This document shows, one piece after another, positions 18,361 through 42,898 of a stretch of DNA of 64,000 bases. Source of the stretch: Halarcobacter sp. (GTDB lineage Bacteria > Campylobacterota > Campylobacteria > Campylobacterales > Arcobacteraceae); NCBI RefSeq assembly GCF_963676935.1, contig NZ_OY781470.1, positions 2,762,680 through 2,826,679 of the forward strand. Direction: 5' to 3'. A program made the translations under genes and the position numbers. The notes beneath the pieces are model-generated. The model searched no databases, was not told the DNA's origin, and saw only the letters and a program-made list of their open reading frames with translations. Numbering within the stretch: position 1 is the stretch's first letter; each line of letters begins with the position of its first letter.

Positions 18361-18411
18361 CAAAAACCCCTAAAACTAGTCAATTCTAAGATTATACCAA
18401 AAAAAAGTTAA

Positions 18412-22304: not shown

Positions 22305-23159
22305 ATGAGAATTAATACAAACGTTTCATCGTTAAATGCACAAGAATCTGCAGTTAACACAAATAATGTACTTAAAAGTTCATTAGAAAAATTAAGTTCA
22401 GGTTTAAGAATCAATAAAGCAGCGGATGATGCTTCTGGTTTAGCAATTGCTGATAAATTAAGAACACAAGCTACTTCAATTAATCAAGCAGCAGATAATG
22501 GTAACTCAGCAATATCTTTACTTCAAATTGCAGATAAATCTATGGCAGAGCAATCAAATATCCTTGATACTATTAAAGCAAAAATGATTCAAGCAAATAC
22601 AAATACTACATCAACTGATGGTATCGCATCAATAAAAAATGATGTTCGAAAACTATTAGAACAATTAAATAATATTGCTGAGCAAACTAATTATAACGGT
22701 ACAGCTTTATTACAAGCTTCAACTGGTTCTTCTGGTACAGGAACAATGCCAGGTCTAACTTTCCAAGTAGGTGAAACTGCTGCAGATACTATTACTGTAG
22801 GTAATATTCAATCAAATACTTCTGGGTTAGGTTTGACTTCAATTGTTAACAATGTAAGTGCCGGTGCAACTTTTAATTCATATGGTGCAACTGGACAAGG
22901 ATTAGTTGATAGTGCAATTACAAAACTAAATGAGTTTAGATCTGAAATCGGTTCTACTCAAAACCAAGTTGAAAGTGCAGTTAGAAACTTAATGACTCAA
23001 GCAACTAACGTAAATGCTGCTGAATCTGTTATTAGAGATGTTGACTATGCTAAAGAATCAGCAAATTTCAACAAACAAAATATTATAGCACAAGCAGGTT
23101 CTTATGCTATTTCTCAAGCTAATACAGTACAACAAAACGTATTGAAATTATTACAATAG
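22305..23159 (+). CDS. Flagellin, second copy
   Basis: This 284-residue flagellin has the same D0/D1-only layout as the copy 1130 bases upstream. Differences cluster in the first 36 residues, around TSINQAADNGNS, and in the last third (SYGATGQGLVDSA, TQATNVNAAES). Long central stretches match even at silent sites. The ribosome site AGAAAGGAT lies before ATG. The upstream gap contains a foldable leader and direct repeats that the first copy lacks, so the two are probably controlled differently. It ends at a strong hairpin shared with the convergent maf gene. Confidence 0.96.
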   Translation: MRINTNVSSLNAQESAVNTNNVLKSSLEKLSSGLRINKAADDASGLAIADKLRTQATSINQAADNGNSAISLLQIADKSMAEQSNILDTIKAKMIQANTNTTSTDGIASIKNDVRKLLEQLNNIAEQTNYNGTALLQASTGSSGTGTMPGLTFQVGETAADTITVGNIQSNTSGLGLTSIVNNVSAGATFNSYGATGQGLVDSAITKLNEFRSEIGSTQNQVESAVRNLMTQATNVNAAESVIRDVDYAKESANFNKQNIIAQAGSYAISQANTVQQNVLKLLQ

Positions 23160-23180: not shown

Positions 23181-23207
23181 ATAAAGTAGAGATTTTCTCT
23201 ACTTTAT
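23181..23207. terminator. Bidirectional terminator between second flagellin and maf
   Basis: A perfect 12-bp stem (ATAAAGTAGAGA and its complement) with a TTT loop, followed by AT-rich DNA on both sides. The maf stop codon (23199-23201) lies in the right arm. Confidence 0.8.
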
Positions 23208-25235: not shown

Positions 25236-26273
25236 TTATCCCTCTTTCGTATCTTCTATAGACTCTTCTCTCAAAGGCATACCGTATTCTAAATCCATTT
25301 TTGCTTTTTTCCCTATTATTTGATTTAATGATTTTGGTTTTATACCTAAATTTGGTCTAAGAGACTTGATGTTTTCGCTGGTAAAAACTTCACCTTTTTT
25401 TATTTTTTTTACTACAAAAAGTGATCGGCTGTAATATTTTCCTTCTCCTTGTTTTTTTGTTAATTTAAACTTATATTCTCCCAACATTTTTTCTACATCT
25501 CTAATTGAGTTGACCATATTTTTTAACTCATTTTTATCTAAAGAAAAAGAAGAATCTGCACTAGGAATTGATTTATCTAAAATAAAATGCTTTTCTATTA
25601 TTTTAGCACCTAAACTTACTGCAACAATAGGTGCCGTAATACCTAAAGTATGATCTGAGTATCCTACAGGTAAATTGAATCTATCCTCCAAATATTTAAT
25701 AGAATTTAAGTTTGCATCTTCTAAAGGTGCAGGATAAGAACTTGTACACTTTAACAAAGAAATATTATGATTTCCCATCTTTTTACAACTATTTATCGCT
25801 TCTTCTATATCTTCAATAGAGGCTATACCTGTTGAAATTATAAGAGGTTTTTGTTTTGAAGCAGTATATTCAATCAAAGGTAAATCTGTAATTTCATAAG
25901 AAGCTATTTTATACACTGGAACATCTATAGTTTCTAAAAAATCAACCGCACTACAGTCAAAAGGAGAAGAGAAGCAATCAATTTTAAGCTCATCGGCATA
26001 TTCCTTCAACTCTTTTTGCCATTCCCAAGGCATGTAGGCTTTTTCATAAAGCTGATATAAATATTGATCATCCCAAATATTCCCGGCACTATAATGGCTA
26101 TTTTTTATATTCAATGTCATTGTATCAGCTGTATAAGTTTGAAATTTTATTGCATCAGCTCCTGCTTCTTTTGCCGCATAAATACTATCTTTGGCTATTT
26201 GAAAACTTTGATTATGGTTTGCAGATAGTTCAGCGATTATATAAGTATATTTATTTTTTAAGTAGTTTTGCAC
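25236..26273 (-). CDS. pseI: Pseudaminic acid synthase (NeuB family with SAF domain)
   Basis: This is about 345 residues from the GTG at 26273, chosen because AAGGA lies seven to eight bases upstream. A longer TTG reading from 26315 would add 14 lysine-rich residues. It has the NeuB-type TIM barrel (YIIAELSANHNQ, GADAIKFQTYTADTMT, CTSSYPAPLEDANL, GYSDHTLG, IEKHFILD) and a C-terminal SAF domain (about 285-345, RSLFVVKKIKKGE). It condenses PEP with a 6-deoxy diacylamino-hexose to give a nonulosonic acid. It is called PseI over LegI or NeuB from the ELSANHNQ/TYTADTMT motifs and the pse genes at 46-50 kb. Confidence 0.88.
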   Translation of the reverse strand: MQNYLKNKYTYIIAELSANHNQSFQIAKDSIYAAKEAGADAIKFQTYTADTMTLNIKNSHYSAGNIWDDQYLYQLYEKAYMPWEWQKELKEYADELKIDCFSSPFDCSAVDFLETIDVPVYKIASYEITDLPLIEYTASKQKPLIISTGIASIEDIEEAINSCKKMGNHNISLLKCTSSYPAPLEDANLNSIKYLEDRFNLPVGYSDHTLGITAPIVAVSLGAKIIEKHFILDKSIPSADSSFSLDKNELKNMVNSIRDVEKMLGEYKFKLTKKQGEGKYYSRSLFVVKKIKKGEVFTSENIKSLRPNLGIKPKSLNQIIGKKAKMDLEYGMPLREESIEDTKEG

Positions 26274-26441
26274 TCTCTTTCCTTTTTTTCTCTGTAGTAT
26301 TTTATTGTTATTCAACTAACAAATATATAAATGATTTATATTAATCTAATATTAAGAATTGTATGCTAATATTCTTTATAGTTTAACTTATCATAATTTA
26401 GTTATAATTTTTCCTAAATTTTGAAATAAATTGGAGTTTCA

Positions 26442-27425
26442 ATGCTCATACCAGCAAAAGATGCAAAAAGCTATGGTGCAATACATGTTGACAATTATCT
26501 AAGCTTTATTGGCTTTTGTAAAAAAGTTGATAATGAAGATATTCAAACCGTAGACGTATATTTAGATAATAAAAGAATTGATTCAATCCAAGCAGATAAA
26601 AATATAGAAAAAATAGAAAAACTGTATGATGTAAAAAATCATGCTTTTGAGTTTGAATTACCAGAAGAGTACATCGGGAAAGTACATTTACTACAATTTA
26701 AATGTAGAGAAGAAGAACTTGTAAACTCACCTATAAAAACTATATCTGAAGATAACCCTAAATTTAATGAGTATAGATTTTTACATAGTTTAGAGAAAGT
26801 AGATCCAGAAGAAGTTAAAGATTTATATTGTCCTAATTCAATAGGTTTTTTGGGGACTGAAGAAAACTTAAAAAATGTTGTATTTATGAATTATATAAGA
26901 GAAATCAAAATAAGATTTCCACTAGTAGAAATTAAATGTTTTTACATAAATAATAAACAAAAAAAGTTATTAGATATTGTTTTATCAAATTTTGATTTTA
27001 AAGTTACAACTTTTAAACTTTCAAATATTTATGATTTAGCTAAAGAAACTGAAATAATTATTTGTAATGAAACTAGTTCTATTGACAAAAAAGTATTAAA
27101 TACTACAATAGCAATTAATTGTATAAATATTCTAGTAATATATATTTATTTACCTCACGCTAAGTTATCATTAACCGACTATGATAACATCTTAATTAAC
27201 ACAAATCACCCCATAATATCGTGCCCTGACAAATTTAATTTAAATAACCATGATATTAAGAAATTCAATTCATCAGTAACACAAATTTTTAAAAATAAAT
27301 TTAATCTTGAAAATGAAAATTTTAATTATGTTGAAGACCTGTATTATTACAAATTTATTGAACTTGGGTTAAGTAATAATCATATAAAAAAATATCATAA
27401 TTTGATTTTCAGAGAAATCTTTTAA
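26442..27425 (+). CDS. Unknown protein with an N-terminal beta-sandwich domain often seen in glycan loci
   Basis: This 327-residue protein has a ribosome site TTGGAG before its ATG and a TATAAT at 26403-26408. Residues about 10-105 follow a pattern I have seen in surface-glycan proteins: FIGFCKKVDN, then VDVYLDNKRIDSIQAD, HAFEFELPEEYIG, and a final LVNSP. The C-terminal 200 residues (FLGTEENLKNVVFMNYIREI onward) look alpha/beta and could be a divergent glycosyltransferase-like fold, but no catalytic motif is visible. It stands alone, divergent from pseI. Confidence 0.55.
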   Translation: MLIPAKDAKSYGAIHVDNYLSFIGFCKKVDNEDIQTVDVYLDNKRIDSIQADKNIEKIEKLYDVKNHAFEFELPEEYIGKVHLLQFKCREEELVNSPIKTISEDNPKFNEYRFLHSLEKVDPEEVKDLYCPNSIGFLGTEENLKNVVFMNYIREIKIRFPLVEIKCFYINNKQKKLLDIVLSNFDFKVTTFKLSNIYDLAKETEIIICNETSSIDKKVLNTTIAINCINILVIYIYLPHAKLSLTDYDNILINTNHPIISCPDKFNLNNHDIKKFNSSVTQIFKNKFNLENENFNYVEDLYYYKFIELGLSNNHIKKYHNLIFREIF

Positions 27426-27473: not shown

Positions 27474-28544
27474 TTATTGATTAACAATATTTTCAAAATC
27501 TACTCTAGGAAATACTTCAAGACTACCCCCTCTAGTGGCATTAAAAATTCTTACATTATTACTTTTTGCATAGTCATTAATTATCTCAAATTGATATGTT
27601 ATATTATCAATTCTTGGCTCAGCCCACAAATCTCCTTTCTTTCTATAATCTTTATGAAAATGATTTTGCTCTCCACATGATACTTTGTATAATGCATCAG
27701 AATTTTTTGTTGGAAAAATATAATTATGATCAAATCCTATTAAGTAAATTTCTTTAGCTTTTAAGAACATAGCAAACTGAAACATTGTAAAAACTACACT
27801 CTCACCACTATAAAATCCAGAGATAGGATTATTTGAAATCTTAACATTTTTGTAATTATTTAATGTCAATTGTTTATAATATAAACTATTCTTTAATTTT
27901 TTACTAATCGTGGTAAAAGGAAAAAACTTTTGACCTAATTCAAATTCACTTAAGCTATCATAATATTCTTTTAAGTCTAATGGGTCTTCGATTGTATAAT
28001 AAGTTGGTCTCCAGGATGTATTCTGAAAAGCTAAAAATATTTTATTTGCAGCAATTGTAGTTTCCATTTTAAGCTTTTCTAGATCATGAACATTTAAACT
28101 TGGGCCGTTACCTACTATAAATATTCTTTTGTGTGTTTTTTGAAATTTTTTAATATTAAAATAATTTCTTGATAAAGGTAAAAAGTTGATTAACACTTTA
28201 ATTTTAAATAAAATTTTACTAATTCTATCTTTGCATAGAATACTTAAAATATCATAATACTTAGGATTATAAATGCCATTTTCACTATTAATTAAAACAA
28301 ATATTTTATTTGAATTTATACTTTTTAAAATTTCTCTTAAATACTTTGTTTTAACAATAATTATTAAATCATGTTCACTTATATCTTTTGCACTAACAAC
28401 ATCACAGTCATTTGAGAAATTATCAATATATGATAAAAAATTTGCACCTTTCAATTTAATATATGATTCCATATATTTTGAATTGATATTTTTGGGTGCT
28501 AAATATACTTTTTTATTTTTCAAATTTAAATTTTTAATTAACAT
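27474..28544 (-). CDS. DUF115/Maf-like protein with N-terminal Rossmann-like module
   Basis: This 356-residue protein has two parts. Residues 1-85 form a small alpha/beta module (KKVYLAPKNI, LSYIDNF, DLIIIVKTKYLREI) that recurs in other proteins of this island. From about 140, RIFIVGNGPSLNVHDLEKL, TIAANKIFLAF, SGFYSGESVVFTMFQFA and KEIYLIGFDHNYIF match the DUF115 (MptE-like/Maf) fold. Related proteins transfer nonulosonates or bind nucleotides. It is divergent from the cyclitol-like operon and may use its product; that is positional inference. It has an ATG start. Confidence 0.75.
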   Translation of the reverse strand: MLIKNLNLKNKKVYLAPKNINSKYMESYIKLKGANFLSYIDNFSNDCDVVSAKDISEHDLIIIVKTKYLREILKSINSNKIFVLINSENGIYNPKYYDILSILCKDRISKILFKIKVLINFLPLSRNYFNIKKFQKTHKRIFIVGNGPSLNVHDLEKLKMETTIAANKIFLAFQNTSWRPTYYTIEDPLDLKEYYDSLSEFELGQKFFPFTTISKKLKNSLYYKQLTLNNYKNVKISNNPISGFYSGESVVFTMFQFAMFLKAKEIYLIGFDHNYIFPTKNSDALYKVSCGEQNHFHKDYRKKGDLWAEPRIDNITYQFEIINDYAKSNNVRIFNATRGGSLEVFPRVDFENIVNQ

Positions 28545-28583
28545 ATTTCACTCAATTTAATCTTCACTACCATTACTATATGA

Positions 28584-28589
28584 TATAAT
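28584..28589 (+). promoter_or_regulatory. Probable promoter (-10) of the 28.6-37.0 kb operon
   Basis: TGATATAAT gives an extended -10 (TG-N-TATAAT) 33 bases before the first start codon, in the short divergent gap. There is no good -35, as is common for extended -10 promoters and for this phylum. Confidence 0.5.
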
Positions 28590-28622
28590 ACTTTATTTTA
28601 ATAAAACTCAGGTTAAGCAATA

Positions 28623-29216
28623 ATGGAAAAATTTATAAATAATTACACAAACTCATTAATAAATTTACTAAATCAAATTGATCAAAAAAGTATAGTAAAA
28701 ATAGTTGAGTCATTAGAATACACTCTGCAAAAAAGTTCGAAAATTTATATAATTGGAAATGGAGGAAGTGCTGCAACTGCTTCACACATGGCAAATGATC
28801 TAGATGTTGGTTTAAAACTTAGAGAAATAAGAAACTTTAATGTTGAAAGCTTAAGTGATAATCCATCAGTATGTACAGCAATTGCTAATGATATAGGCTA
28901 TGAAAATATTTTTTATGCTCAAATTAAGAATAAAATAAACAAAGATGATTTACTAATAGCTATTTCATGTAGTGGAAATAGTCCAAATATTTTAAAAGCT
29001 GTAAAATATGCTAAACAAAAGGGTTCAACAATTATCAGCATGACTGGCTTTGATGGTGGAGAATTAAAAAACTTATCAGACATTAAGTTCCATGTGCAAA
29101 CAGATAAAGGTGAATATGGATTAGTTGAAGATATTCACATGATTTTAGATCATATTATTTTTTCTTATTATATCTCTTTAAAGCCAAATTCCAAATCAAA
29201 TTATACAATGGAATAA
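28623..29216 (+). CDS. SIS-domain isomerase, GmhA-like (phosphoheptose isomerase family)
   Basis: This 197-residue SIS protein has IIGNGGSAATASHMANDL (about 40-57), VCTAIANDIGYENIF, ISCSGNSPNILKAVKYA and a C-terminal GLVEDIHMILDH with the Glu/His of the GmhA site. GmhA converts sedoheptulose 7-phosphate to a heptose 7-phosphate. Here it opens an operon with a cyclase that could also use a C7 sugar phosphate, and no GmhB or HldE follows. Its true substrate is therefore open. Confidence 0.82.
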   Translation: MEKFINNYTNSLINLLNQIDQKSIVKIVESLEYTLQKSSKIYIIGNGGSAATASHMANDLDVGLKLREIRNFNVESLSDNPSVCTAIANDIGYENIFYAQIKNKINKDDLLIAISCSGNSPNILKAVKYAKQKGSTIISMTGFDGGELKNLSDIKFHVQTDKGEYGLVEDIHMILDHIIFSYYISLKPNSKSNYTME

Positions 29217-29219
29217 TTT

Positions 29220-30227
29220 ATGTTAAGAATAGGGATAGCTGGTTTTGGTAAAATGGGTCAAATTCGAGCTGATGAAATATTAAAAAATCCAAATACTAAA
29301 CTAGTAGCTATTTATGAACAAATTGGTGAAGTTAGCAATAAACTTTATACAGATGCCATAATATGTAAAAGCTATGAAGAACTATTAGAACAAAAACTGG
29401 ATGCAATATTCATATGTGCTTATAATAATGTAGCAAAACCATATACAATAAAAGCTTTGCAAAAAAATATTCATGTATTTTGTGAAAAGCCCCCTGCTCA
29501 TACTTGTGAAGAATTAAAAGAAGTTATTGATGTTGAAAAAAATAGCAATTTAATTTTAAAATATGGATTTAATCATAGATTACATTACTCTGTTATTGAA
29601 GCTAAAAAATTAATTGATTCCAAAAAGTTTGGTAAACTTTTATCAATAAGAGGAGTTTATGGAAAAGCTGGAAGTATAGATTACCATAAAAACTGGAGAA
29701 ACTATAAAAAATACTCTGGTGGAGGAATTCTTTTAGATCAAGGAATTCATATGCTTGATTTAATCTGCTACTTTACAAATAGTACTTTTGATGTATTAAA
29801 TGCTACCTTAGATAATTCATATTGGGATATTGAAGTTGAAGATAATGCTTTTATAACTTTAAAAAAAGATAATATAATTGCAACTATGCATTCTAGTGCA
29901 ACTCAATGGAGACATAAGTTTTTATTAGAATTATGCTTTGAAGAGGGCTATATTAATCTTGATGGCATACTATCAAATTCCAGATCTTATGCTCCAGAAA
30001 CCCTGATTGTAGGGAGAAGAGAGTTTGAAGATATTACACATGCAATGGGCAAACCAAAAGAGAGTATAACTTGGTTTGAAAATGATGATTCATGGAAATT
30101 AGAACTTGAAGAGTTTATCGATGGAATATTAAATAAAAAAGATATTATTCATGGTACAAGCCAAGAAGCATATAGAGTACTTAATTTAGTAGAAACAATT
30201 TATAATAAAAGTGGATTCTATAAATGA
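29220..30227 (+). CDS. Gfo/Idh/MocA-family NAD(P)-dependent dehydrogenase
   Basis: This 335-residue protein has an N-terminal Rossmann fold (RIGIAGFGKMGQIRADEIL, 3-21), the family's EKPPAHTCEEL (about 92-102) and GFNHRLHYSVIEAKKL. The C-terminal half contains GGGILLDQGIHMLDL with the catalytic His region. Members oxidise sugars, inositols or aminocyclitols at one hydroxyl. The order SIS, dehydrogenase, SDR, AroB-like cyclase suggests work on a cyclised sugar. It starts three bases after the previous stop. Confidence 0.86.
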   Translation: MLRIGIAGFGKMGQIRADEILKNPNTKLVAIYEQIGEVSNKLYTDAIICKSYEELLEQKLDAIFICAYNNVAKPYTIKALQKNIHVFCEKPPAHTCEELKEVIDVEKNSNLILKYGFNHRLHYSVIEAKKLIDSKKFGKLLSIRGVYGKAGSIDYHKNWRNYKKYSGGGILLDQGIHMLDLICYFTNSTFDVLNATLDNSYWDIEVEDNAFITLKKDNIIATMHSSATQWRHKFLLELCFEEGYINLDGILSNSRSYAPETLIVGRREFEDITHAMGKPKESITWFENDDSWKLELEEFIDGILNKKDIIHGTSQEAYRVLNLVETIYNKSGFYK

Positions 30228-30877
30228 AAAGAGTTTTATTAACAGGCGGAAGTAGAGGAATAGGAAAAGCGATTTTTGAGGAGCTTAAAAATAACTATGA
30301 AGTTATTGCACCAACAAGAGAACAACTTAATTTATCATCTTTAAAATCAATTGAAACCTACTTTGAAAGTGACAAAAAAATTGATATATTAATAAATAGT
30401 GCGGGTATTAATATTATAAAAGATATTGAATCAATTTTAGATAATGATATTGAAAAGATAAATCAAATAAATTTGATTGCCCCTTTAAAATTAATTCAAA
30501 AAGTTATACCAAATATGAAAAAAAATAATTTTGGTAAAATTATAAATATTAGCTCCATTTGGGGAGTAAAAAGTAAAGAGAAGCGAACTTTATACAGTGG
30601 TACTAAATTTGGTATAATTGGTCAAACAAAAGCACTCTCAAAAGAACTTGGGGAATACAATATCTTAGTAAATGCTGTATGTCCAGGATTTACTGCAACT
30701 GATTTAACTATGCAAAGTTTATCTGAAACTGAATTATTAGATATTCAAAATCAAATTCCACTTAAAAGACTAGCCAAACCAAGAGAGATAGCAAAAGCAA
30801 TTAAATTTTTAATTAGTGATGATAATAGTTATATAACGGGACAAACTTTAATTATTGACGGAGGATTCACGTCATGA
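30224..30877 (+). CDS. Short-chain dehydrogenase/reductase
   Basis: This 217-residue classical SDR has TGGSRGIGKAIFEEL (7-21), INSAGINI (NAG-type), Ser in INISSIWG, YSGTKFGIIGQT (YxxxK) and NAVCPGFTATDL, ending ITGQTLIIDGGFTS. It reduces or oxidises a keto group using NAD(P)H. It overlaps the neighbours on both sides by four bases (ATGA), showing tight translational coupling. The substrate is unknown, probably an intermediate of the same pathway. Confidence 0.9.
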   Translation: MKRVLLTGGSRGIGKAIFEELKNNYEVIAPTREQLNLSSLKSIETYFESDKKIDILINSAGINIIKDIESILDNDIEKINQINLIAPLKLIQKVIPNMKKNNFGKIINISSIWGVKSKEKRTLYSGTKFGIIGQTKALSKELGEYNILVNAVCPGFTATDLTMQSLSETELLDIQNQIPLKRLAKPREIAKAIKFLISDDNSYITGQTLIIDGGFTS

Positions 30878-31950
30878 AAAAATTAATATTAAACTCCAAT
30901 ATTCATAACTATGAAGTGAAATTTAAGAACGACTTGGAATTTATTAATAAATTAATAGATATAAAAAAGAAAGTATTTATTATTGATAAAAATATTTATA
31001 ATTTATATAAACAATATTTTACTAAAATCCAAGAAAATAGACTTTATATTTTTGATGCCATTGAAGAGAAAAAAACTCTAGAAAGTGTACAAAATATGTA
31101 TAAATTCTTAGCAAAATTTGATGAAAAAAGAAATATTACCCTCATATCAATTGGGGGAGGGATAACTCAAGATGTAACAGGTTTTGTTGCATCAACATTA
31201 TATAGAGGGATCCATTGGATTTTTATCCCTACTACTTTTTTAGCCCAAGCAGATAGTTCTATTGGAAGTAAAACATCACTAAATTTTGAAACTTATAAAA
31301 ATATTTTAGGTGGTTTTTATCCTCCAAACACAATATATATAGCACCTATTTTTTTAAAAACATTAACAAAAAAAGATTTTTTTAGTGGGATAGGAGAGGT
31401 TATAAAGTTCGCTCTTTTAGAAGAATCTTATCCTAAAAAAATCGATTCAATAATCAAAACAATTGAAGATTTAAAAAATGACAAAAATATTTTAAAGACT
31501 ATTTTCAATACTATGAAAATCAAAAAAGCATATATTGATGAAGATGAATTTGATATAGGGAAAAGAAATCTTTTTAACTATGGTCATTGTTTTGGACATG
31601 CACTAGAAAATAGTTCTTCATATAAAATTCCCCATGGAATTGCCGTAACAATAGGTATGATTTTTGCTAATATTATCTCTTTTAATAGAGGCTTAATAAG
31701 CAAAAATATTTTTAATAAACTTAATAAAAAGCTATTTTTACCAAACATACCAATTAAACTCAAAGATACTTATTTCAACCCAAAAGTTTTATTAGAATCT
31801 ATGAAAAATGATAAAAAAAGAATTGGTAAAGATTTAACAATTATTATACCTATAGATAATGATATTAGAGCAACAAAAATAGATAATTTAACATTTGAAG
31901 AATTTAATAAAACTCTAGATGAACTTATAAAAATCTTAGGACTAAAATAA
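30874..31950 (+). CDS. AroB-like sugar-phosphate cyclase (3-dehydroquinate synthase superfamily)
   Basis: This 358-residue protein has the DHQS fold landmarks: SIGGGITQDVTGFVAS, YRGIHWIFIPTTFLAQADSS, GIGEVIKFALLEE (Zn-ligand Glu), NYGHCFGHALE (Zn His) and PHGIAV (Zn His). The usual GGK of DHQS is GSK (SSIGSKTSLN). Related cyclases make dehydroquinate, 2-deoxy-scyllo-inosose or valiolone-type C7 cyclitols. Because it sits among a dehydrogenase, SDR, aminotransferase and cytidylyltransferase, a special cyclitol role is more likely than the shikimate pathway. Specificity cannot be read from sequence alone. Confidence 0.8.
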   Translation: MKKLILNSNIHNYEVKFKNDLEFINKLIDIKKKVFIIDKNIYNLYKQYFTKIQENRLYIFDAIEEKKTLESVQNMYKFLAKFDEKRNITLISIGGGITQDVTGFVASTLYRGIHWIFIPTTFLAQADSSIGSKTSLNFETYKNILGGFYPPNTIYIAPIFLKTLTKKDFFSGIGEVIKFALLEESYPKKIDSIIKTIEDLKNDKNILKTIFNTMKIKKAYIDEDEFDIGKRNLFNYGHCFGHALENSSSYKIPHGIAVTIGMIFANIISFNRGLISKNIFNKLNKKLFLPNIPIKLKDTYFNPKVLLESMKNDKKRIGKDLTIIIPIDNDIRATKIDNLTFEEFNKTLDELIKILGLK

Positions 31951-31952
31951 CA

Positions 31953-32903
31953 ATGTTTGAAAAATTTTATAACAAAAAAATATTTATAACTCCTAAAACA
32001 CAATTTAATGAATATTTAAAATATCTACTAGTAACCAGTGGACATAATTTTATAGGTTTTATAGATTCATATAAAAAAGATTCTGATATTGTAAATAAAA
32101 ATACTATAGAAGATGAAGATATCATTTTAATTTTTAGTCCAAATTATTATGAAGAAATAGCAAATTCATTGAAAAGAGGTAGAAAATTTATAATTAATTA
32201 TGAAAATGACAACTTTACTTACATAGATTTTAATTCATTTAAAGGTTATAAAACTATCCCAAAATTAAATACAAACTATTTACAAACACAAAGATGGTAT
32301 TGGGAAAATCATCTAAAAAAATATGACTTAAATAACGCTATAGAAGAATGTGGTTATGATTGGGGCAATCCAACAAATATGAATGACCCTTTAGGTAACT
32401 ATTTAAATATCTTAAATAAATTAAATAGCCTTATAGATAAAAATACTTCTATCCTTGAAATTGGAACATTAAGTGGCAAATGGACTAAGTTTATGCTTGA
32501 GGCAAAAATAATATATTGTGTTGATATTAATAAGTATTTTATAGATGTAATAAAAAAAAGATTCTCCGAAAGAGCTAATAAATTTAAATTTTATATCTCT
32601 AAAGGTAATGAATTAAATGGTATTAAAAATAACAGTATTGATTTAGTCTTTTGTATGGATACCCTAGTTAGAGTAGAGAAAAAATACATTTTTGACTATA
32701 TAAAAGAAATTTCTAGAATCTTGAAACTAAGTGGACAAGCAATACTTCATTTGCCAAATACAGATATTGAAGATTGTAGAAATAGAAATTTTACTGATAT
32801 AAATACCTATGAAATTTCAAATGAATTGAAAAAATATTTTAATCACTTTAAATTAGATTCTCAAACAATTGTTCATGGGACATTAGTTTATATCAATTGT
32901 TAG
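31953..32903 (+). CDS. SAM-dependent methyltransferase with N-terminal Rossmann-like module
   Basis: This 316-residue protein has residues 1-75 (KKIFITPKTQF, FIGFIDSYKKDSDIV, DIILIFSPNYYEEIANSL) matching the module shared with three other island proteins. The C-terminal half is a class I methyltransferase: SILEIGTLSGKWTKFML (motif I), YCVDINKYFIDVI (motif II), NSIDLVFCMDTLVRV and LKLSGQAILHLPN. It probably methylates the sugar or cyclitol made by this operon. It is two bases downstream of the cyclase gene. Confidence 0.78.
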   Translation: MFEKFYNKKIFITPKTQFNEYLKYLLVTSGHNFIGFIDSYKKDSDIVNKNTIEDEDIILIFSPNYYEEIANSLKRGRKFIINYENDNFTYIDFNSFKGYKTIPKLNTNYLQTQRWYWENHLKKYDLNNAIEECGYDWGNPTNMNDPLGNYLNILNKLNSLIDKNTSILEIGTLSGKWTKFMLEAKIIYCVDINKYFIDVIKKRFSERANKFKFYISKGNELNGIKNNSIDLVFCMDTLVRVEKKYIFDYIKEISRILKLSGQAILHLPNTDIEDCRNRNFTDINTYEISNELKKYFNHFKLDSQTIVHGTLVYINC

Positions 32904-32914
32904 GATAATAATAG

Positions 32915-33835
32915 ATGAAAATAGCAGTTACGTCTAAAGCATTTAGTAAGAATGAAATTTTAATAAGTGAATTAAGAAAATATTTTAAAGATATAAAACT
33001 TAATCATGGGACAAGAAAATTAACAGAAAAAGAAGTTATTGACTTCTTAGAAGATTGTGATGGAGCGATAGTTGCATTAGAAGATATAAATAGAAATGTA
33101 GTAGATAATTTACCTAAATTAAAAGTTATAGCAAAATTTGGTGTAGGACTAGACAATATAGATATAAAATACTGTAAAGAAAAAAATATTAAAATTGGAT
33201 GGACGGCAGGAGTAAATAAAAGAAGTGTAGCTGAAATGACACTAGGATTTATGTTAATGTTAATTAGAAACTTATATACAACTTCCAATAAGTTATCAGA
33301 ATCAATTTGGGATAAAAATGGAGGATGTAATTTATATGGTAAAACAATAGGTATTATTGGTATAGGGAATATTGGAAAAGAACTAATAAAAATACTTAAT
33401 GTATTTAACTGTAAAATTCTAGTTAATGATATTATTGAACAAAATGATTATTATAAAAAGAATAATCTTATAGAATCTACAAAAGAAGAAATATTTAGAC
33501 AAAGTGATATTATTACCTTACATATTCCATTAGATAAAATGACAACAAATTTGATTAATAAGAATACTCTACAAATGATGAAACAAACATCTTTCCTTAT
33601 AAATACAGCTAGAGGTGACTTAGTTAACCTTACTGATTTAAAATATGCTTTACAAAATAATATAATAGCTGGAGCCGCAATCGATGTTTATGACCAAGAG
33701 CCACCTAGCGATAAAGAGCTTTTATCTCTAGAAAATCTTATTTGTACTCCTCATATTGGCGGCAACTCAAAAGAGTCTACTTTAGCAATGGGAGTAAGTG
33801 CAATAAAACATATAAAGGAATTACTTAATGATTAA
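32915..33835 (+). CDS. D-isomer specific 2-hydroxyacid dehydrogenase (SerA-like)
   Basis: This 306-residue protein has the family catalytic set: KFGVGLDNIDI, TIGIIGIGNIGKELIKIL (NAD-binding), LINTARGDLVN with catalytic Arg region, DQEPP (Glu) and CTPHIGGNSKES (His). It resembles 3-phosphoglycerate dehydrogenase without the ACT domain. In this operon it may act on a hydroxyacid side group or a sugar acid. It overlaps the next gene by eight bases. Confidence 0.85.
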   Translation: MKIAVTSKAFSKNEILISELRKYFKDIKLNHGTRKLTEKEVIDFLEDCDGAIVALEDINRNVVDNLPKLKVIAKFGVGLDNIDIKYCKEKNIKIGWTAGVNKRSVAEMTLGFMLMLIRNLYTTSNKLSESIWDKNGGCNLYGKTIGIIGIGNIGKELIKILNVFNCKILVNDIIEQNDYYKKNNLIESTKEEIFRQSDIITLHIPLDKMTTNLINKNTLQMMKQTSFLINTARGDLVNLTDLKYALQNNIIAGAAIDVYDQEPPSDKELLSLENLICTPHIGGNSKESTLAMGVSAIKHIKELLND

Positions 33836-34970
33836 TGGGAAAAAAATTGTAGCAATGATACCTGCACGATTGGGAAGCCAAAGAATACCTAAAAAAAATT
33901 TAAGATTATTAGGAAATAAAGTTTTAACCCAATGGGTAGGAGAATCTTGTAAAAAAACAAATATTTTTGATGAAATATATATAAATTCTGAATCTGAAAT
34001 TTTTGAAAGAATTGCAACAGATATAGGAATAAAGTTTTATAAACGACCTAATGAATTAGCTTCAAATAGTGCTACGAATGATGATTTCAGTCTTGATTTT
34101 ATAAATAATGTAGAATGTGATATTCTAGTTCAAGTAAACCCTACTTCACCATTTACAACACCGGAAGATATAGAAGGTGTTGTAAAAATGTTTATAAATG
34201 GAGATTATAAAACAGTTCATACTGTAAAAGATGAACAAATTGAAGGACTTTTTAATGATATACCCTTAAACTTTGATCCACTTAAACAAATGCCTCCTTC
34301 TCAAGAGTTAACCCCTGTAAAAATATTTACCTCATCAATTATGGCGTGGGATACTCAAAAATTTAAAGAAAATATGAAAAAAAATGGCTGTGCAGTTTAC
34401 GGTGGGAACGGGAAGATTGGTTACTATACAATTAAAGGTGCCGGAATGATTGATATAGATAATGAAAAGGATTTTTATCTAGCAGAAGCTGTTATAAAAA
34501 TGAATGAAGAAAAACAAAATAAAAAATATTATGACTTAAGTAATCAATTAACGGCTGATGCAAATGTACCAAAGATATTAAAACAAGATGGTGTAGAAAA
34601 ATCAATATTTGATATGGCAAACCAAGGTATAACTCATGTACCTAACTTAATTCAGAAATATGGTAAAAACTCATCCTGGTCTCATACTCTTGTTGACACA
34701 GAATCAAATTCTGCTACACTTATATGTCAACTACCAGGAGAAGGGAACAGAAGGCATTACCATCCTGATTGGAATGAATGGTGGTTTATCATAGATGGAA
34801 CCTGGCAATGGGATATTGACAATGAAGTTAAAACTATACAAAAAGGTGATCTTGTATTTATACAAAAAGGAATAAAACATAAAATTACTGCAATTGGAAA
34901 TGAAGCCGCTATAAGAATTGCAGTAAGTAGATATGATGTAGATCATGTGTATGATAATGAGGATTACTAA
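33828..34970 (+). CDS. Cytidylyltransferase-cupin fusion protein
   Basis: This 380-residue two-domain protein has residues 1-225 as a CMP-sugar synthetase type nucleotidyltransferase (MIPARLGSQRIPKKNL, QVNPTSPFTTPEDI, DIDNEKDFYLAEA). Residues about 245-380 are a cupin with GEGNRRHYHPDWNEWWFIIDG, the two-motif His/Glu metal site, and KGIKHKI. The first part would activate an acid sugar or cyclitol with CTP. The cupin might bind, isomerise or oxidise the same product. The fusion suggests sequential steps. Confidence 0.82.
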   Translation: MINGKKIVAMIPARLGSQRIPKKNLRLLGNKVLTQWVGESCKKTNIFDEIYINSESEIFERIATDIGIKFYKRPNELASNSATNDDFSLDFINNVECDILVQVNPTSPFTTPEDIEGVVKMFINGDYKTVHTVKDEQIEGLFNDIPLNFDPLKQMPPSQELTPVKIFTSSIMAWDTQKFKENMKKNGCAVYGGNGKIGYYTIKGAGMIDIDNEKDFYLAEAVIKMNEEKQNKKYYDLSNQLTADANVPKILKQDGVEKSIFDMANQGITHVPNLIQKYGKNSSWSHTLVDTESNSATLICQLPGEGNRRHYHPDWNEWWFIIDGTWQWDIDNEVKTIQKGDLVFIQKGIKHKITAIGNEAAIRIAVSRYDVDHVYDNEDY

Positions 34971-34973
34971 TTA

Positions 34974-36101
34974 ATGAATTATCTTTTACCGTTAAAAATA
35001 GATTTTAGAAAATCTAATGGTTCATATCTTTTTGATAAAAATACACAAACTAAATATTTAGATTTTTTTAGTATGTATTCATCTTTACCATTAGGTTACA
35101 ACCACACTATTTTTGATGATAGTTTTAAATCCAAAATAAATGAAATATCTTATATCAAAATGACAAATAATGTCTGTCAAAGTGATGAATTTCTAGATAT
35201 GATTAATATATTTAAGCAATACACCTTTAGTAAAAATTTTCATTTTACATGTACCGGTGCTTTGGCAGTTGAATCGGCATTGAAAGCTGCTATGGAATAT
35301 AAAAAAATTGATAATCCACTAATACTAAGTGTGAAAAACTCATTTCATGGAGTAAATAGTTGGGGGTTTACAACCAGTAGAGTAGGAGTTACTGCAAAAA
35401 GAATGGAATATTTTCCAAAAAATAATTGGCTTGATTTAAGCTTAGATGATATTATTAAATATTTGGAAAGAAAAAACTTAAAAAATTTAACTGCAATAAT
35501 AATAGAACCTATTCAAGCTACAAATGGAGATATTTATCTCGATAAAAATAAATTAAAAATAATAAGAAATTTATGTATAGAAAAAGATATATGTTTTATA
35601 TTAGATGAAATACAAACAGGATTTGGGACTACTGGTAAAATGTGGTATTATGAATATTTAGATTTAATACCTGATATTTTAGTATTTGGTAAAAAATCTC
35701 AAGTTTCAGGTATAGTTATAAGCAACAAATATAAAGGGATACTGGAAAGTACTTATCAAAAACTTGATGTGACTTTTGATGGAGATTTAATAGATATTGT
35801 AAGGTCAACTTATATTTTGAAAGCGTTCGAAAAATATAATATATTAAATAATGTAAAAAATAATTCAAATAAATTGAAACAAAATTTAGAATCACATGTC
35901 TTAAACTATAGATCAATTGGTCATTTAATTGCGTTTGATTTTAAAAATTCAAAGCTACGCGATAATTTTGTAAAAAAATGTTTTGATAATAAGTTATTAA
36001 TTAACAAAGGTGGAGAAACTTCTGTTAGATTACGACCAAACTTAGCTTTAAACCAAAAAGAAATTAATGAATTTATACAAAAAGTAAAAGAGTTAATTTA
36101 A
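34974..36101 (+). CDS. Class III PLP aminotransferase, lysine 6-aminotransferase-like
   Basis: This 375-residue protein has CTGALAVESALKAAMEY (about 93-109), NSFHGVNSWGF, IIIEPIQATNGD, LDEIQTGFGTTG (Asp about 211) and DILVFGKKSQVSGIV with the PLP Lys at 240 or 241. The FGKK-QV-G form is typical of L-lysine epsilon-aminotransferases. Its length is below the roughly 430-450 usual for the class. In this setting it may aminate a keto-cyclitol or sugar, or make an amino-acid-like substituent. Confidence 0.83.
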   Translation: MNYLLPLKIDFRKSNGSYLFDKNTQTKYLDFFSMYSSLPLGYNHTIFDDSFKSKINEISYIKMTNNVCQSDEFLDMINIFKQYTFSKNFHFTCTGALAVESALKAAMEYKKIDNPLILSVKNSFHGVNSWGFTTSRVGVTAKRMEYFPKNNWLDLSLDDIIKYLERKNLKNLTAIIIEPIQATNGDIYLDKNKLKIIRNLCIEKDICFILDEIQTGFGTTGKMWYYEYLDLIPDILVFGKKSQVSGIVISNKYKGILESTYQKLDVTFDGDLIDIVRSTYILKAFEKYNILNNVKNNSNKLKQNLESHVLNYRSIGHLIAFDFKNSKLRDNFVKKCFDNKLLINKGGETSVRLRPNLALNQKEINEFIQKVKELI

Positions 36102-37022
36102 ATGAATATTTTAATTACAGGTTGTGCAGGATTTATAGGTTCTCATTTAGCAGAAGAACTATTAAAAGATAAAAAGAATACAATAATAGGAATAGATAAT
36201 TTATCTAGTGGAAATAAAGAAAATTTAGAACTTATCAATTCATTTGATGAATACAATAATTTTCTATTTATCAAAGCAGATATTAGAGATTTTTATGAAT
36301 TAACTAAAATAATTAAAAACCACAATATACAATATATTTACCACCTAGCAGCAATTGCTTCTGTACAAATATCTATAAGAAATCCTCTTTTATCTAATGA
36401 AGTTAATGTAAAAGGGACATTAAACGTATTAGAAGCTTCAAAACAAAATGGCGTTAAAAGAATTGTATTCTCTAGTTCTGCTGCAGTTTACGGTGATGAA
36501 AATAGTGTATTAAAATCGGAGAAAACCCCAACTAAACCTATTTCATCGTATGGATATGAAAAACTAATCAGTGAATACCATATGAAACTTTACAATGATC
36601 AATATAACTTAGAAACAGTTATCCTAAGATATTTTAATGTTTTTGGAGAAAGACAAAATACCAATAGTAACTATAGCGGAGTAATAACTATTTTTAATGA
36701 TAAATTTAAGAATAATGAAATTCCAAATATCTATGGAGATGGCGAACAATATAGAGATTTTATATATGTAAAAGATATTGTAAAAATAACAATAAAAGCA
36801 ATGAATATACAAAATATTTCAGGAGAACTATTTTGTGTAGGTAGCTCAAAAAAAACGACTATTAATGAACTCTTTAATCTCATGAATAAAAAATATAATA
36901 AAAATTTCAAAGCTAATTATTTAAAAACAAAAAATGGAGATATAAAAAAATCTATTTGTGATAATAGTAAATTAATGTCTACATTCAACATAAAACTGTC
37001 TAAAATAGACAATTTTATTTAG
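36102..37022 (+). CDS. NAD-dependent epimerase/dehydratase (extended SDR)
   Basis: This 306-residue protein has NILITGCAGFIGSHLAEEL (NAD-binding), YHLAAIASVQISIRNP, FSSSAAVYGD (catalytic Ser), YGYEKLISEY (YxxxK) and RYFNVFGERQ, close to UDP-glucose 4-epimerase/UDP-GlcNAc epimerases. The C-terminus stops about 10-15 residues earlier than usual, and the 3' end overlaps the convergent methyltransferase by eight bases. That suggests end erosion or a recombination boundary. It is the last gene of the plus-strand operon. Confidence 0.86.
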   Translation: MNILITGCAGFIGSHLAEELLKDKKNTIIGIDNLSSGNKENLELINSFDEYNNFLFIKADIRDFYELTKIIKNHNIQYIYHLAAIASVQISIRNPLLSNEVNVKGTLNVLEASKQNGVKRIVFSSSAAVYGDENSVLKSEKTPTKPISSYGYEKLISEYHMKLYNDQYNLETVILRYFNVFGERQNTNSNYSGVITIFNDKFKNNEIPNIYGDGEQYRDFIYVKDIVKITIKAMNIQNISGELFCVGSSKKTTINELFNLMNKKYNKNFKANYLKTKNGDIKKSICDNSKLMSTFNIKLSKIDNFI

Positions 37023-37611
37023 TACATATTATCATTTGTGTAGCTTGATGTAAATTTGTTACTCTATGATCAATAATATTAAAATATTGAGAAATGTAAT
37101 CCTTAAATTCGTTAAAATTCCATTCCCTTTGATGGGCTGGATTTCTTGGTGGACCATCTAAATACTTAGAATCTTTAGGATAAACCAAATCTCTTTCAGG
37201 AGTAGATAATACTAAGTATTTAAAATTTATCTTTTTTATATATTCAATTAATTCATTAGGATTAACTAAATGTTCAATAACATCAGAGCAAATTAATACA
37301 TCCACGTCTAAATCATAGTTTTTAGTAAAGTCAGATTCAAGCCATTTCTTTTTAGGATACTTATTTTTAAGAAAATCAAGATTTTCATCTAATTCTAGGC
37401 CAATTGTTTTATATTCACCTAAATATGTAACTAATTTATATCCTGAACCACATCCTATATCACATACTTTAGATAACTTATTTTTTTTCATTAATCCTAA
37501 GGCATGCAGATATATTTCAAGTTGCCAATCATCAGTTTCATTTTGATCATTATAGTGTACATATTTATCTCTTGATTTATAGTTATCTTTTAAAAAATAG
37601 TTATTTTTCAT
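37015..37611 (-). CDS. SAM-dependent methyltransferase
   Basis: This 198-residue class I methyltransferase has VCDIGCGSGYKLVTYL (motif I, about 43-58), TIGLELDENL (motif II), DVLICSDVIEHLVNPNEL and FKYLVLSTPERDLV. The C-terminal part has NPAHQREWNFNEF, typical of methyltransferases in sugar loci. It overlaps the upstream GT-like gene by four bases and is probably translated with it. The acceptor is unknown. Confidence 0.8.
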   Translation of the reverse strand: MKNNYFLKDNYKSRDKYVHYNDQNETDDWQLEIYLHALGLMKKNKLSKVCDIGCGSGYKLVTYLGEYKTIGLELDENLDFLKNKYPKKKWLESDFTKNYDLDVDVLICSDVIEHLVNPNELIEYIKKINFKYLVLSTPERDLVYPKDSKYLDGPPRNPAHQREWNFNEFKDYISQYFNIIDHRVTNLHQATQMIICTK

Positions 37612-38906
37612 ATTCTACCTTTTTCTATTATGTTTTTTATTTTTGTTGCTGCTACATCAATGGGATTCTTTCTTGATAATATATTAAATTGATCATCTAA
37701 GAACTCTTTTGCCCGTTGTCTAATATTTAATCTATTAGATAATTCATACCTTATCATTTTAACCAATGAATTAGTATCTGTACTAATGCTGTAAGCACCT
37801 TTAGGATTTTTATATAATTTCACCAATTCATTATGAGGATTATGATAAACAACTGGCTTTCCATATGCTAAAGATTCACAAATTATAGTACTAAACCTAC
37901 TTATAACAATTGTTGATTTCTTTATCGTTGTATATATATCATCCTCACTTACATTATAAAAAGTAGATAACTCACCTTTGTCAGCATGATGTTGTGCTAT
38001 TATATAGTTTAAATTTAAAATATTACAAGCTTCAATTACTTGTTCTAACCATAATTCTCTAACTTCTTCATAAGTTCCATACGTGAAATTTACATTTATC
38101 ATTACTAAATGTTCATCAGGAAAAGTTACAGGGCTATTCCACATATCAAACATTTTAGGCAATCCAACTATAGCACATTTATCTTTTTTATTTTGTAAAA
38201 ACTTCATATCATTTCGACCACAAGTTAAAACAAATTCTGTTGTCTGATATGGATATCTTTTTATTTTATAATCTTTATCTTCAAAGTCTTCTATTCCATC
38301 AACTAAACCTATAGTTTTTATACCTTTTTCTTTAGATTGAACAATAATATCTCTATCTATCCAATCTACAAGACAAACCAATGCCTCAAAATTGATAAAA
38401 TGTATGGCATCAATACTCACTGTTTCAATATCTGAGTTTTCTTCTAATCCAATCTTTACATTAATATAATCATAATGACTAGGGTTAATAATAATTGCAA
38501 CTCTAAATCCTAGTTTAATTAAGGCTCTACTTACTAAACTTGAATCTATAACATTCGATCTATTATATGCAAAAAATAATATATCATATTTATTTTTATA
38601 TATAGATATTAAGAACTTTTTATAATCATTATAAAGTATTAGTCCTAATGATTTATTATGAGATACAATTACTTTAGATAAATCAAAACTATTTGATATT
38701 TCATTCCAATATTTAGGAGAATCTATTATAATATAGTCGAACCTAGAAATATTCTCTTTCTTATAAATATTTTTTCCTATTTTAAAATTATCTACAAAAC
38801 CAAGAATATCAATACCATACTCTTTTAATTGTGAACTAAGTTCAATAGTCAAATTATTATATGGTGCTAAATATATTCTCTTATTTTTTAAATTATCTAA
38901 TTCCAT
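37608..38906 (-). CDS. GT-B-like glycosyl/glycerophosphotransferase with N-terminal Rossmann-like module
   Basis: This is a 432-residue protein. Residues 1-80 (KRIYLAPYNNL, ILGFVDNFK, DYIIIDSPKYWNEISNSF) are the island's shared module. Then DILFFAYNRSNVIDSSLVSRAL, LVMINVNFTYGTYEEV, YIIAQHHADKGE and VISRFSTIICESLAYGKPVVYHNP fit a GT-B fold related to CDP-glycerol or UDP-GlcNAc epimerase-like transferases. Donor and acceptor are unknown. It lies next to the gene-free stretch with the mobile-element remnant. Confidence 0.65.
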   Translation of the reverse strand: MELDNLKNKRIYLAPYNNLTIELSSQLKEYGIDILGFVDNFKIGKNIYKKENISRFDYIIIDSPKYWNEISNSFDLSKVIVSHNKSLGLILYNDYKKFLISIYKNKYDILFFAYNRSNVIDSSLVSRALIKLGFRVAIIINPSHYDYINVKIGLEENSDIETVSIDAIHFINFEALVCLVDWIDRDIIVQSKEKGIKTIGLVDGIEDFEDKDYKIKRYPYQTTEFVLTCGRNDMKFLQNKKDKCAIVGLPKMFDMWNSPVTFPDEHLVMINVNFTYGTYEEVRELWLEQVIEACNILNLNYIIAQHHADKGELSTFYNVSEDDIYTTIKKSTIVISRFSTIICESLAYGKPVVYHNPHNELVKLYKNPKGAYSISTDTNSLVKMIRYELSNRLNIRQRAKEFLDDQFNILSRKNPIDVAATKIKNIIEKGRI

Positions 38907-38920
38907 TTAATTACCTAAAT

Positions 38921-39304
38921 TAATTTTCACACATAAAAAATCATAAATTTTTTATACTTAAAAGCTTTGTCAAACCCCATAAGCATGAACTTTTAGTGAT
39001 AATTAGATCGACAAAAGAACTATTATAAAGGTTTTTTATAGGAGTTGTCAATTTTATCAAAACTGCTATAAATAATGTATTAATAGATCTGATTATATAA
39101 ATTTCAATTAATCTTGAAATTTAAGTGTGATCTGTCAACAATTTATAGGGCACAAAATTTTTAATTTAACTAACCGTTATTCTAAATATAACATTTTTCT
39201 TCAAAATCACTTGGAGATATTTTTCAATCACAAGAGATTGTCAAGACAAATAAAGATTTATACGTGTTCACATGAAAAATAACTTAGTTTTATGTGCGAA
39301 AGTT
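38921..39304. mobile_element. Decayed mobile-element remnant with terminal inverted repeats; no intact gene
   Basis: This covers most of the only gene-free stretch over 300 bases (38907-39325). Its ends carry 18-base inverted repeats matching at 15 positions (core TTTCRCACATAAAA at 38925-38938 and 39301-39288). On the minus strand, 39182-39223 encodes KISPSDFEEKCYI-stop, like the extreme C-terminus of IS3-family transposases, with an in-frame stop just upstream. The rest is non-coding. No target duplication is evident. The repeats and the fragment may come from different elements. Confidence 0.4.
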
Positions 39305-39325
39305 GAGTTATAAAATTTAATATTT

Positions 39326-40687
39326 TTAAAATAAATTACAAATACTTAAAATATTTATATTAAAATTTTTTTTCTTTGCATAGTTTTCTATTAGATTCTG
39401 AATCTCTATTGCATAAGCGATACTTGTAATTAAAATATTTTTATTATTCAAGTCCAATGTTATATCTTCTAATTTAGACACCTTAAACTCATTTAAAAAG
39501 TTAGAATCATTTCTATCTATAACAGCTAAGACTTTTACTCTATTCTTTTCTAGCTTTTTTAATAAATCACTAGCCAGCTTTCCTGCTCCATAAAGAATCA
39601 CTTCTTTTATATTTCTATACTCTAATATACTTATAAACATTTCACTATCTATTTCATTAATATTAATATTTTTTATTTTATATTCCAGATTAGTAAGACT
39701 TTTTGAATCTAAAAATTTTATCATTCCTATATCTAGCTTATTTATTAATATAACTTTTAAAAAATTGTATGAAAAATTTATAAAATATACAGGATTTTCT
39801 TTTTTTACTATTTCTATTATATCTTTTTGAGGAGTAGTTAATTTACTTAACTTATATAATATTAGTTGTAAGTAAATTTTTGTATCAATATTAAATATAC
39901 ATAAACTAGATAATAAATGTGTAGTTATAATATATAAAGATCTTGAATAAAAAAAACCTTCATATCTATTAAATAAACTATTATCTATTAAAAAATTTTT
40001 AATTGAAGATAAACTAAAAAACATATCTTCAATATGCTTATTAGATATTGATTGAGTAATAGAGTTTTCTCTTACAAACCAATTATACAATATGTTTTCA
40101 ATACTTAAATTTTTCTTTGAATAAAAAAATAATTGTAGAGTAACAAATTGATCTTCATAAAATCTTTTTTCGGGAAAAAAGATTTTATTCTCAATAAAAA
40201 GATTTTTTTTATATATTTTATTACAAACCATTAGAGATATATTAGAAGTCATAAAATCTGATATAGGGTTATTTACAGAATATTCTTTGGGAGATATTGA
40301 TAAAACCTCTTCTGAAGAATTTACTCTTTTATATCGACAAGTAACAATATCACATTTCTTATAAAAGGCCTCATTGTAAAGAAGCTCAACCATCTTCGGA
40401 TGTATAGTATCATCACTATCTATAAAAATCAAATATCTTGTTTTTGAGTATTTAATCCCTGTATTTCTGGCTCCCCCTAGTCCTTTATTTTCTTGATTTA
40501 TTATTTTTATACGAGAATCTTTTTCTTTATAATTTCGTGCAATACTTAAACTATTATCAGGTGACCCATCATTTATAATTAAAATTTCTATTTCTTTAAA
40601 TGATTGTTTTATTACAGAGTCTAAACATTTTTTTAAATATTTTTCAACATTATAAATAGGAATTATCACACTCACAAGCTTATTCAT
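39326..40687 (-). CDS. Family 2 glycosyltransferase with C-terminal Rossmann-like domain
   Basis: This is a 453-residue protein. The N-terminal GT2 domain (1-220) has VSVIIPIYNVEKYLKKCLDSV, IEILIINDGSPDNSL, GGARNTGI and a DxD-like FIDSDDTIHP, then EDQFVTLQLF. A helical linker follows. The last 95 residues (EVILYGAGKLASDLLKKLE, VLAVIDRND, NILITSIAYAIEIQNLI) form a small NAD-type Rossmann domain resembling the N-terminal module of other island proteins, here with an intact GxGxxG-like loop. It is the last gene of the pse operon. Sugar specificity is unknown. Confidence 0.82.
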   Translation of the reverse strand: MNKLVSVIIPIYNVEKYLKKCLDSVIKQSFKEIEILIINDGSPDNSLSIARNYKEKDSRIKIINQENKGLGGARNTGIKYSKTRYLIFIDSDDTIHPKMVELLYNEAFYKKCDIVTCRYKRVNSSEEVLSISPKEYSVNNPISDFMTSNISLMVCNKIYKKNLFIENKIFFPEKRFYEDQFVTLQLFFYSKKNLSIENILYNWFVRENSITQSISNKHIEDMFFSLSSIKNFLIDNSLFNRYEGFFYSRSLYIITTHLLSSLCIFNIDTKIYLQLILYKLSKLTTPQKDIIEIVKKENPVYFINFSYNFLKVILINKLDIGMIKFLDSKSLTNLEYKIKNININEIDSEMFISILEYRNIKEVILYGAGKLASDLLKKLEKNRVKVLAVIDRNDSNFLNEFKVSKLEDITLDLNNKNILITSIAYAIEIQNLIENYAKKKNFNINILSICNLF

Positions 40688-42203: not shown

Positions 42204-42898
42204 TTATATCTCCTTTGAAAGCAACAAAATAGTATTTCCTACTTTCATATTACTCATATCTTTTAATCTAAATATTTTACCAACATTTTTATCATTATTC
42301 AAAATAGATATTATTGAATTTTCATCATAAGTATTTAATTGTTTTAAATCATCTATTTTAAGTATTTCAACTTTTGTAGTTCCAAATTTTTTTATAGTAT
42401 TATTGGGGAAAGACAAAGATAAATTTTTTACATCTTCATAGCAGTTTTTATTCTCATACTCTTTGCCTTGTCTTCCATAAGTATCATTTATCCTTGCTAA
42501 ATCAAACTTATTTACAGGAGTTTCAATTTCCAGTACAAAGCACCTTCTTCATTAATTGCTTGTGTTTGATGAAAAATCTTTTTTTCAAAAAACAATCCAT
42601 CTAAATTTTTTAATAAATTTGTTTTGTTTAGAGTACCACACATAACCTCACCATCTAAGCATACTAAAGAGGTTTGTTTTTTCACATGGCAATGCATTGA
42701 TGTATTTTGCATATATCTTATATTTAATATCCATATTGCACAATACTCATTTTCATAAAGAAGATATTCACTTCCCCAAGGTTTTTTTACTAAAATATCT
42801 TTAAAATCAATATCACACTCTAAATCATTGTAAATTAACCCATCTAAGTTTTCTTTATCTTCTAATGCTGGTTCTAATATGTATTTTATATCTTTCAT
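42204..42898 (-). pseudogene. Cupin-domain protein gene broken by a one-base frameshift
   Basis: The cupin reading frame runs from ATG 42898 (VKKPWGSEYLLYE, TSMHCHVKKQTSLVCLDGE) to an apparent end at 42512. After residue EGAL the conserved-looking continuation VLEIETPVNKFDLARIND is in another frame. It stays open through GRQGKEYENKN to LLLSKEI and the stop at 42204. Restoring one base near 42535-42537 gives one 231-residue protein: cupin plus a small C-terminal domain. It could be a recent null mutation, phase-variable state or base-calling error. It overlaps the ATP-grasp gene by four bases. Confidence 0.75.

Follow-up and report, generated by a model that had tools for sequence, protein, structure and literature searches.

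Sugar phosphate cyclases are known chiefly from primary metabolism and from small natural products; in the acarbose and validamycin routes, a cyclitol kinase precedes nucleotidyl transfer. NCBIfam lists TIGR04425 as a hypothetical family of AroB-related putative sugar phosphate phospholyases (cyclizing), and a literature search for it returned no substrate, pathway or paper. Searches pairing dehydroquinate synthase (DHQS) with flagellin glycosylation, O-antigen or the other families discussed below gave nothing relevant, and a B. pseudomallei paper naming these families was set aside, its loci being unrelated. Here, we describe a nine-gene operon (genes A to I, 28623-37022) encoding a member of TIGR04425 in Halarcobacter sp. 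It lies in a stretch of 64,000 nucleotides (assembly GCF_963676935.1, contig NZ_OY781470.1, positions 2,762,680 to 2,826,679), hereafter the window, and is found at ~2.79 Mb of a single-contig genome of 3.1 Mb. We tentatively read the operon, with a probability of about 0.42, as a horizontally mobile cassette whose product, a carbocyclic sugar acid resembling quinate, would be activated with cytidine monophosphate (CMP) and used in flagellin glycosylation.

A preliminary description had reported nine tightly coupled genes and their families, and the coordinates, gaps (-8 to +11 bp) and Pfam matches agree with it. All nine open reading frames are on the plus strand. They encode a SIS isomerase (A, 28623-29216), a Gfo/Idh/MocA dehydrogenase (B, 29220-30227), a short-chain dehydrogenase (SDR; C, 30224-30877), an AroB-like sugar phosphate cyclase of the DHQ_synthase family (D, 30874-31950), an S-adenosylmethionine (SAM) methyltransferase (E, 31953-32903), a PGDH-like D-2-hydroxyacid dehydrogenase (2HDH, 2-Hacid_dh; F, 32915-33835), a NeuA/PseF-type CMP-transferase fused to a cupin (CTP_transf_3 and Cupin_2; G, 33828-34970), a class III aminotransferase (Aminotran_3; H, 34974-36101) and a nicotinamide adenine dinucleotide (NAD)-dependent epimerase/dehydratase (I, 36102-37022). 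No kinase family was found among them with Pfam. The successive intergenic distances are 3, -4, -4, 2, 11, -8, 3 and 0 bp, and judging from this spacing alone the nine genes likely form one transcription unit; a scan of 28400-39400 found no terminator-like site. Neither the promoter scan (86 sites, 89 expected from shuffled sequence) nor the GC content (~0.25 in the operon, only slightly higher in the flanks) was used as evidence.

The cyclase D scores 431.9 bits with TIGR04425 (cut-off 400) and stays below the cut-off of the aroB equivalog TIGR01357 (268.6 bits, cut-off 305). The housekeeping aroB (375.8 bits) is located far from the cassette, at 1.18 Mb (G000:C1:1180531); D is thus not the sole AroB of the genome, a point on which the preliminary description had made its proposal depend. 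In a maximum-likelihood tree, D and 18 relatives form a single 19-row clade (100/100), separate from AroB (100/100), 2-deoxy-scyllo-inosose synthase (DOIS), EboD and two annotated sedoheptulose 7-phosphate (S7P) cyclases. A plasmid collection searched for D relatives contained only AroB, DOIS and S7P cyclases, none of them close, and these served as reference sequences. Two loci retained in a first scan (L007, L008) encode ordinary AroB and not cassette cyclases. The AlphaFold model of D (pLDDT 92.1) has DHQS as its top fold match (5hvn, TM score 0.84), as in sequence. Since ValA is matched nearly as well (TM 0.81), the fold does not discriminate between these functions.

The active site is more informative. 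The pocket that binds 3-deoxy-D-arabino-heptulosonate 7-phosphate (DAHP) in S. aureus DHQS is lined by 11 listed residues (PMC6262012). In A. nidulans numbering, D has all of them (D146, K152, N162, E194, K197, K250, R264, N268, H271, H275 and K356), and so do 14 of 16 members of TIGR04425; in the remaining two, His replaces K197. The two annotated S7P cyclases lack five of them (M250, K/A264, D268, P275 and R/E356 instead), the two annotated DOIS proteins lack R264 and N268 (G/A264 and E268), and EboD lacks K250, R264, N268 and K356. Hence, D carries neither the EEVS-type S7P-cyclase signature (M250, D268, P275, loss of R264/K356) nor that of DOIS (E268, loss of R264). In the A. nidulans structure of Carpenter et al. 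(1998), the substrate carboxylate is reportedly held by K250, R264 and K356; since these residues are kept, D probably accepts a 2-keto acid. Furthermore, TIGR04425 proteins share three changes that argue against a plain DHQS: GGK to GSK beside K152, HGE to HGI beside the zinc ligand H287 and GD to QD in the NAD loop.

Eighteen informative loci from several phyla, including the window, were compared. The SDR adjoins D in all of them. Eleven loci, the window among them, carry a supply module made of the SIS, Gfo/Idh/MocA and 2HDH genes (type 1), two of these ending at contig edges without the SIS gene (L003) or the 2HDH gene (L066). The seven others carry in its place an HpcH/HpaI aldolase identified with Pfam (type 2), whose sole PDB match, a weak one (0.0013), is to YfaU, an aldolase of 2-keto-3-deoxy sugars. 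No locus has both modules; a naive Fisher test of this lack of overlap gives 3e-5, a value to be read with the non-independence of the loci in mind. Mapping the modules on the D tree requires two to three changes, the six-row aldolase clade being sister to the clade of the window and the type-2 D proteins being nested within type-1 diversity. At the thresholds used, a G-type CMP transferase occurs in eight of the 11 type-1 loci and in one type-2 locus. The gene set is conserved, another point on which the preliminary description had made its proposal depend: five to six of its genes co-occur in other phyla, and it is therefore no chance neighbourhood. In several phyla, a core of six genes is found together as a block whose internal order varies.

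Several residues of A, B, C and F are invariant: H55 and D59 in A (orthologues in nine other type-1 loci), the catalytic E89-K90-P91, D173 and H177 in B (orthologues in 10 loci, 41-77% identity), S111, Y124 and K128 in C, and the catalytic R233, E262 and H280 in F (orthologues in nine loci). A is a GmhA-like second copy (SIS_2, 70 bits). Since it falls below the cut-off of the GmhA equivalog TIGR00441 (117 bits, cut-off 209.45) and another gmhA, above this cut-off, is present at 1958889, A is not the housekeeping GmhA. G scores well above the Pfam gathering threshold of CTP_transf_3 (73.7 and 22.6 bits) and below the PseF equivalog (55 bits, cut-off 205.7), the real PseF being encoded at 46578-48188. 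A fused relative of G is found in L065, and transferase and cupin are separate genes in L051 and L082. In two other cassettes (L052:11869-12390 and L053:11335-11844), a YhcH/YjgK/YiaL (DUF386) protein occupies the position that the cupin has elsewhere.

From these families we infer a pathway, including its substrates, order, product and acceptor. The SIS isomerase would convert a ketose phosphate, e.g. S7P, into an aldose phosphate, B would oxidise its C1 to give an aldonate and F would produce a 2-keto-aldonate phosphate. D would then close the ring as DHQS does, with loss of the phosphate, C would reduce the ring ketone and G would attach CMP without any kinase. The order is suggested by the chemistry of the enzymes. 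SIS isomerases require a phosphorylated open-chain sugar, so that A should act before D removes the phosphate. 2HDHs interconvert 2-hydroxy and 2-keto acids, and since the expected product of D has no 2-keto acid, F should also precede it. The SDR remains when the supply module is exchanged and therefore likely acts with or after D. HpcH/HpaI aldolases form a 2-keto-3-deoxy acid from pyruvate and an aldehyde in one step. Hence, either module could yield a 2-keto-aldonic-acid phosphate, the class of substrate predicted from the D pocket. NeuA/KdsB-type transferases use unphosphorylated sugar acids, and the lack of a kinase would be explained by removal of the phosphate before CMP transfer. The expected product has a hydroxyl and a carboxylate on one ring carbon, like ulosonic acids. 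The aminotransferase and methyltransferases would decorate it, and its transfer would be carried out by the product of gene K and/or an MptE/Maf-type protein, both described below. In a more specific version, which we regard as doubtful, the products would be carbocyclic counterparts of ulosonic acids: if S7P is the starting compound, the three type-1 steps would oxidise its C1 to a carboxylate, giving 2-keto-heptonate-7-phosphate, which TIGR04425 enzymes would close to a hydroxylated dehydroquinate; the NeuA-type enzyme would make from the reduced product the first CMP-activated carbasugar, destined for flagellin, and elsewhere a pyruvate aldolase would replace the three steps.

The operon lies in a flagellin glycosylation island, recognised by the joint presence of genes for flagellin, Maf and CMP-nonulosonate synthesis, a combination repeated in L065/L087. 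On one side, all on the minus strand, are a Maf flagellin glycosyltransferase (23199-25235, Maf_flag10_N and PF01973) and the pseudaminic acid synthase PseI (25236-26315, TIGR03586, 480 bits, cut-off 340); on the other, a PseF-PseG fusion, PseC and PseB, i.e. the CMP-pseudaminic acid pathway (46578-50303), all above their NCBIfam cut-offs. PseF and PseG form a single protein of 536 residues (46578-48188). Two tandem, near-identical flagellin genes (21175-22029 and 22305-23159) encode 284 residues each. A congener locus (L053) has the cassette next to a flagellin gene and to a 71% relative of the window gene at 20007-21128. Moreover, two Pseudomonadota loci (L065/L087 and L082/L086) carry nearly the whole island, namely the cassette, a fusion of the window genes K and J, PseB, PseC, PseF and FleQ; the former also has PseI, flagellin and a Maf-type protein, and L086 continues into FliF. 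This recurrence in distant genomes supports the flagellar decoration suggested in the preliminary description. Support from these comparisons is good for the gene set, for its conservation and for the flagellar setting.

TIGR04425 is rare and patchy. It was detected in four of 104 genomes of the family of the window (with a clear score gap) and in 5/397 of its phylum, in 5/228 of the Sulfurimonas family, and in 5/398, 2/51 and 2/192 genomes of the phyla of a Cycloclasticus symbiont, of Denitrovibrio and of a Gracilibacteria genome, respectively. This distribution fits horizontal transfer of surface-glycan genes.

The preliminary description compared the operon with the valiolone-type routes of acarbose and validamycin, in which case D would cyclise S7P to a valiolone-type cyclitol that would then be aminated and nucleotide-activated. 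D belongs to the same superfamily, A resembles GmhA, whose family handles S7P, an aminotransferase and a nucleotidyltransferase are present, and 2-epi-valiolone synthase (EVS), a true S7P cyclase, lies near DHQS in published trees (PMC5133447). However, D falls in a separate clade, has a DHQS pocket and is set apart from both S7P-cyclase references by K250, R264, N268, H275 and K356; the operon has no sugar kinase, and the 2HDH would be left without a role. Amination itself appears optional, since H has a relative in only one of the 10 other type-1 loci (L082, 48%), and the aminotransferase was dropped as a pathway-defining gene. For the epimerase I, none of the other cassettes has a close relative. 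These comparisons weaken the aminated-cyclitol proposal, which now appears unlikely. If D were instead a true DHQS acting on DAHP, the cassette would channel dehydroquinate into a glycan residue resembling quinate or shikimate. The complete DHQS pocket and the best fold and sequence matches speak for this, whereas the sub-threshold aroB score, the distinct clade, the separate aroB and the family-wide changes next to the catalytic Lys and the zinc His speak against it; it would also leave the SIS, Gfo/Idh/MocA and 2HDH genes and the aldolase swap unexplained, and we judge it quite unlikely. That the nine genes belong to several short decoration pathways, acting on pseudaminic acid or its N-acyl group in a variable island, is consistent with the complete pseudaminic acid pathway and other modifiers found there and with the accessory nature of E, H and I. 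It is nevertheless improbable, since the six core genes stay together in different phyla, whether pseudaminic acid genes accompany them (L065/L087, L086) or are absent from the stretch examined.

Several observations weigh against the quinate-like, CMP-activated sugar acid that we favour. A compound with CMP on a carbocyclic tertiary hydroxyl is not known to act as a glycosyl donor. In one TIGR04425 locus (L064), both supply modules are missing within ~10 kb; L063 yielded no G, and the relative of G in L006 is weak. By descent, type-1 and type-2 loci are not fully independent. Finally, given the position of EVS near DHQS and a pocket comparison made without EVS sequences, a DHQS-like pocket may be compatible with S7P.

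Other genes may act with the cassette. Methyltransferase E has a relative only in L082 (41%), alongside the same core; in this locus, a carbamoyltransferase (L082:7427-9265) immediately follows the cassette and is likely a further decoration enzyme. J (37015-37611, minus strand), a SAM methyltransferase, travels with the cassette; its relatives in L065 (58%) and L086 (60%) are fusions with K. K (37608-38906, minus strand) is a candidate dedicated transferase on the basis of its modelled GT-B fold and its neighbourhood. Its J-fused relatives, 41-45% identical, adjoin the cassette in the two Pseudomonadota loci; none was found in the other genomes among the 104 of the family of the window. The model gives weak matches to TagF and to epimerases; since its fold match (TM ~0.45-0.5) is to GT-B in general, we do not claim a TagF-type polyol-phosphate transferase. 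Another candidate, Maf-like, is an MptE-like (DUF115) protein divergent from the operon (27474-28544, minus strand, PF01973, 50.8 bits); PF01973 proteins adjoin the cassette in L051, L052, L053, L067 and L082. At the N terminus, this protein, E and K resemble one another over a domain of ~100 residues, which several L051 proteins have as well. The protein encoded at 26442-27425 has no Pfam match; in L052 and L053, relatives of it are found next to both Maf and the cassette, and in L051 they lie near the cassette. Between the cassette and the pseudaminic acid genes, 42895-46577 encodes two ATP-grasp-like proteins, a BshB1-like deacetylase and a 231-residue protein that may modify the glycan. 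An ankyrin-repeat protein of 647 residues (16420-18363) is encoded upstream of the flagellin region. In four Sulfurimonas-family genomes (L054, L055, L056 and L084) and in L083, the type-2 cyclase and aldolase occur with a thiamine-diphosphate enzyme, and several of these loci also carry genes resembling the cytidine diphosphate (CDP)-glucose pathway. This association suggests a branched CDP-sugar in the same polysaccharide.

If the proposed pathway is correct, the uncharacterised family TIGR04425 would be tied to flagellar glycans and thereby given a function, a carbocyclic residue would join the bacterial surface-sugar repertoire and one ring-closing step would be fed by two unrelated precursor modules. 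Among known systems, D fits TIGR04425 itself, being above its cut-off and having the same pocket and clade as the relatives used here. With AroB, it shares the fold, the zinc ligands, the NAD site and the 11 DAHP-pocket residues, but it differs by its separate clade, its score below the equivalog, its glycan-locus setting and the changes beside K152 and H287. C7-cyclitol (valiolone) clusters likewise combine a cyclase with dehydrogenases, an aminotransferase and a nucleotidyltransferase, whereas the operon has a D that departs from theirs at five pocket positions, no kinase, a KdsB/NeuA-type CMP transferase and a 2HDH. The ebo operon, too, is conserved and centred on a sugar phosphate cyclase from an uncharacterised clade (PMC5133447); it differs by an EboD without the four pocket residues given above, by its other partner genes and by having no glycan link. 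Compared with CMP-pseudaminic acid synthesis, the operon has no NeuB-type condensation and its G reaches only 55 of the 205.7 bits of the PseF cut-off, but it shares with this pathway and with Maf glycosylation the same island, the CMP-transferase superfamily and DUF115/Maf-type transferases.

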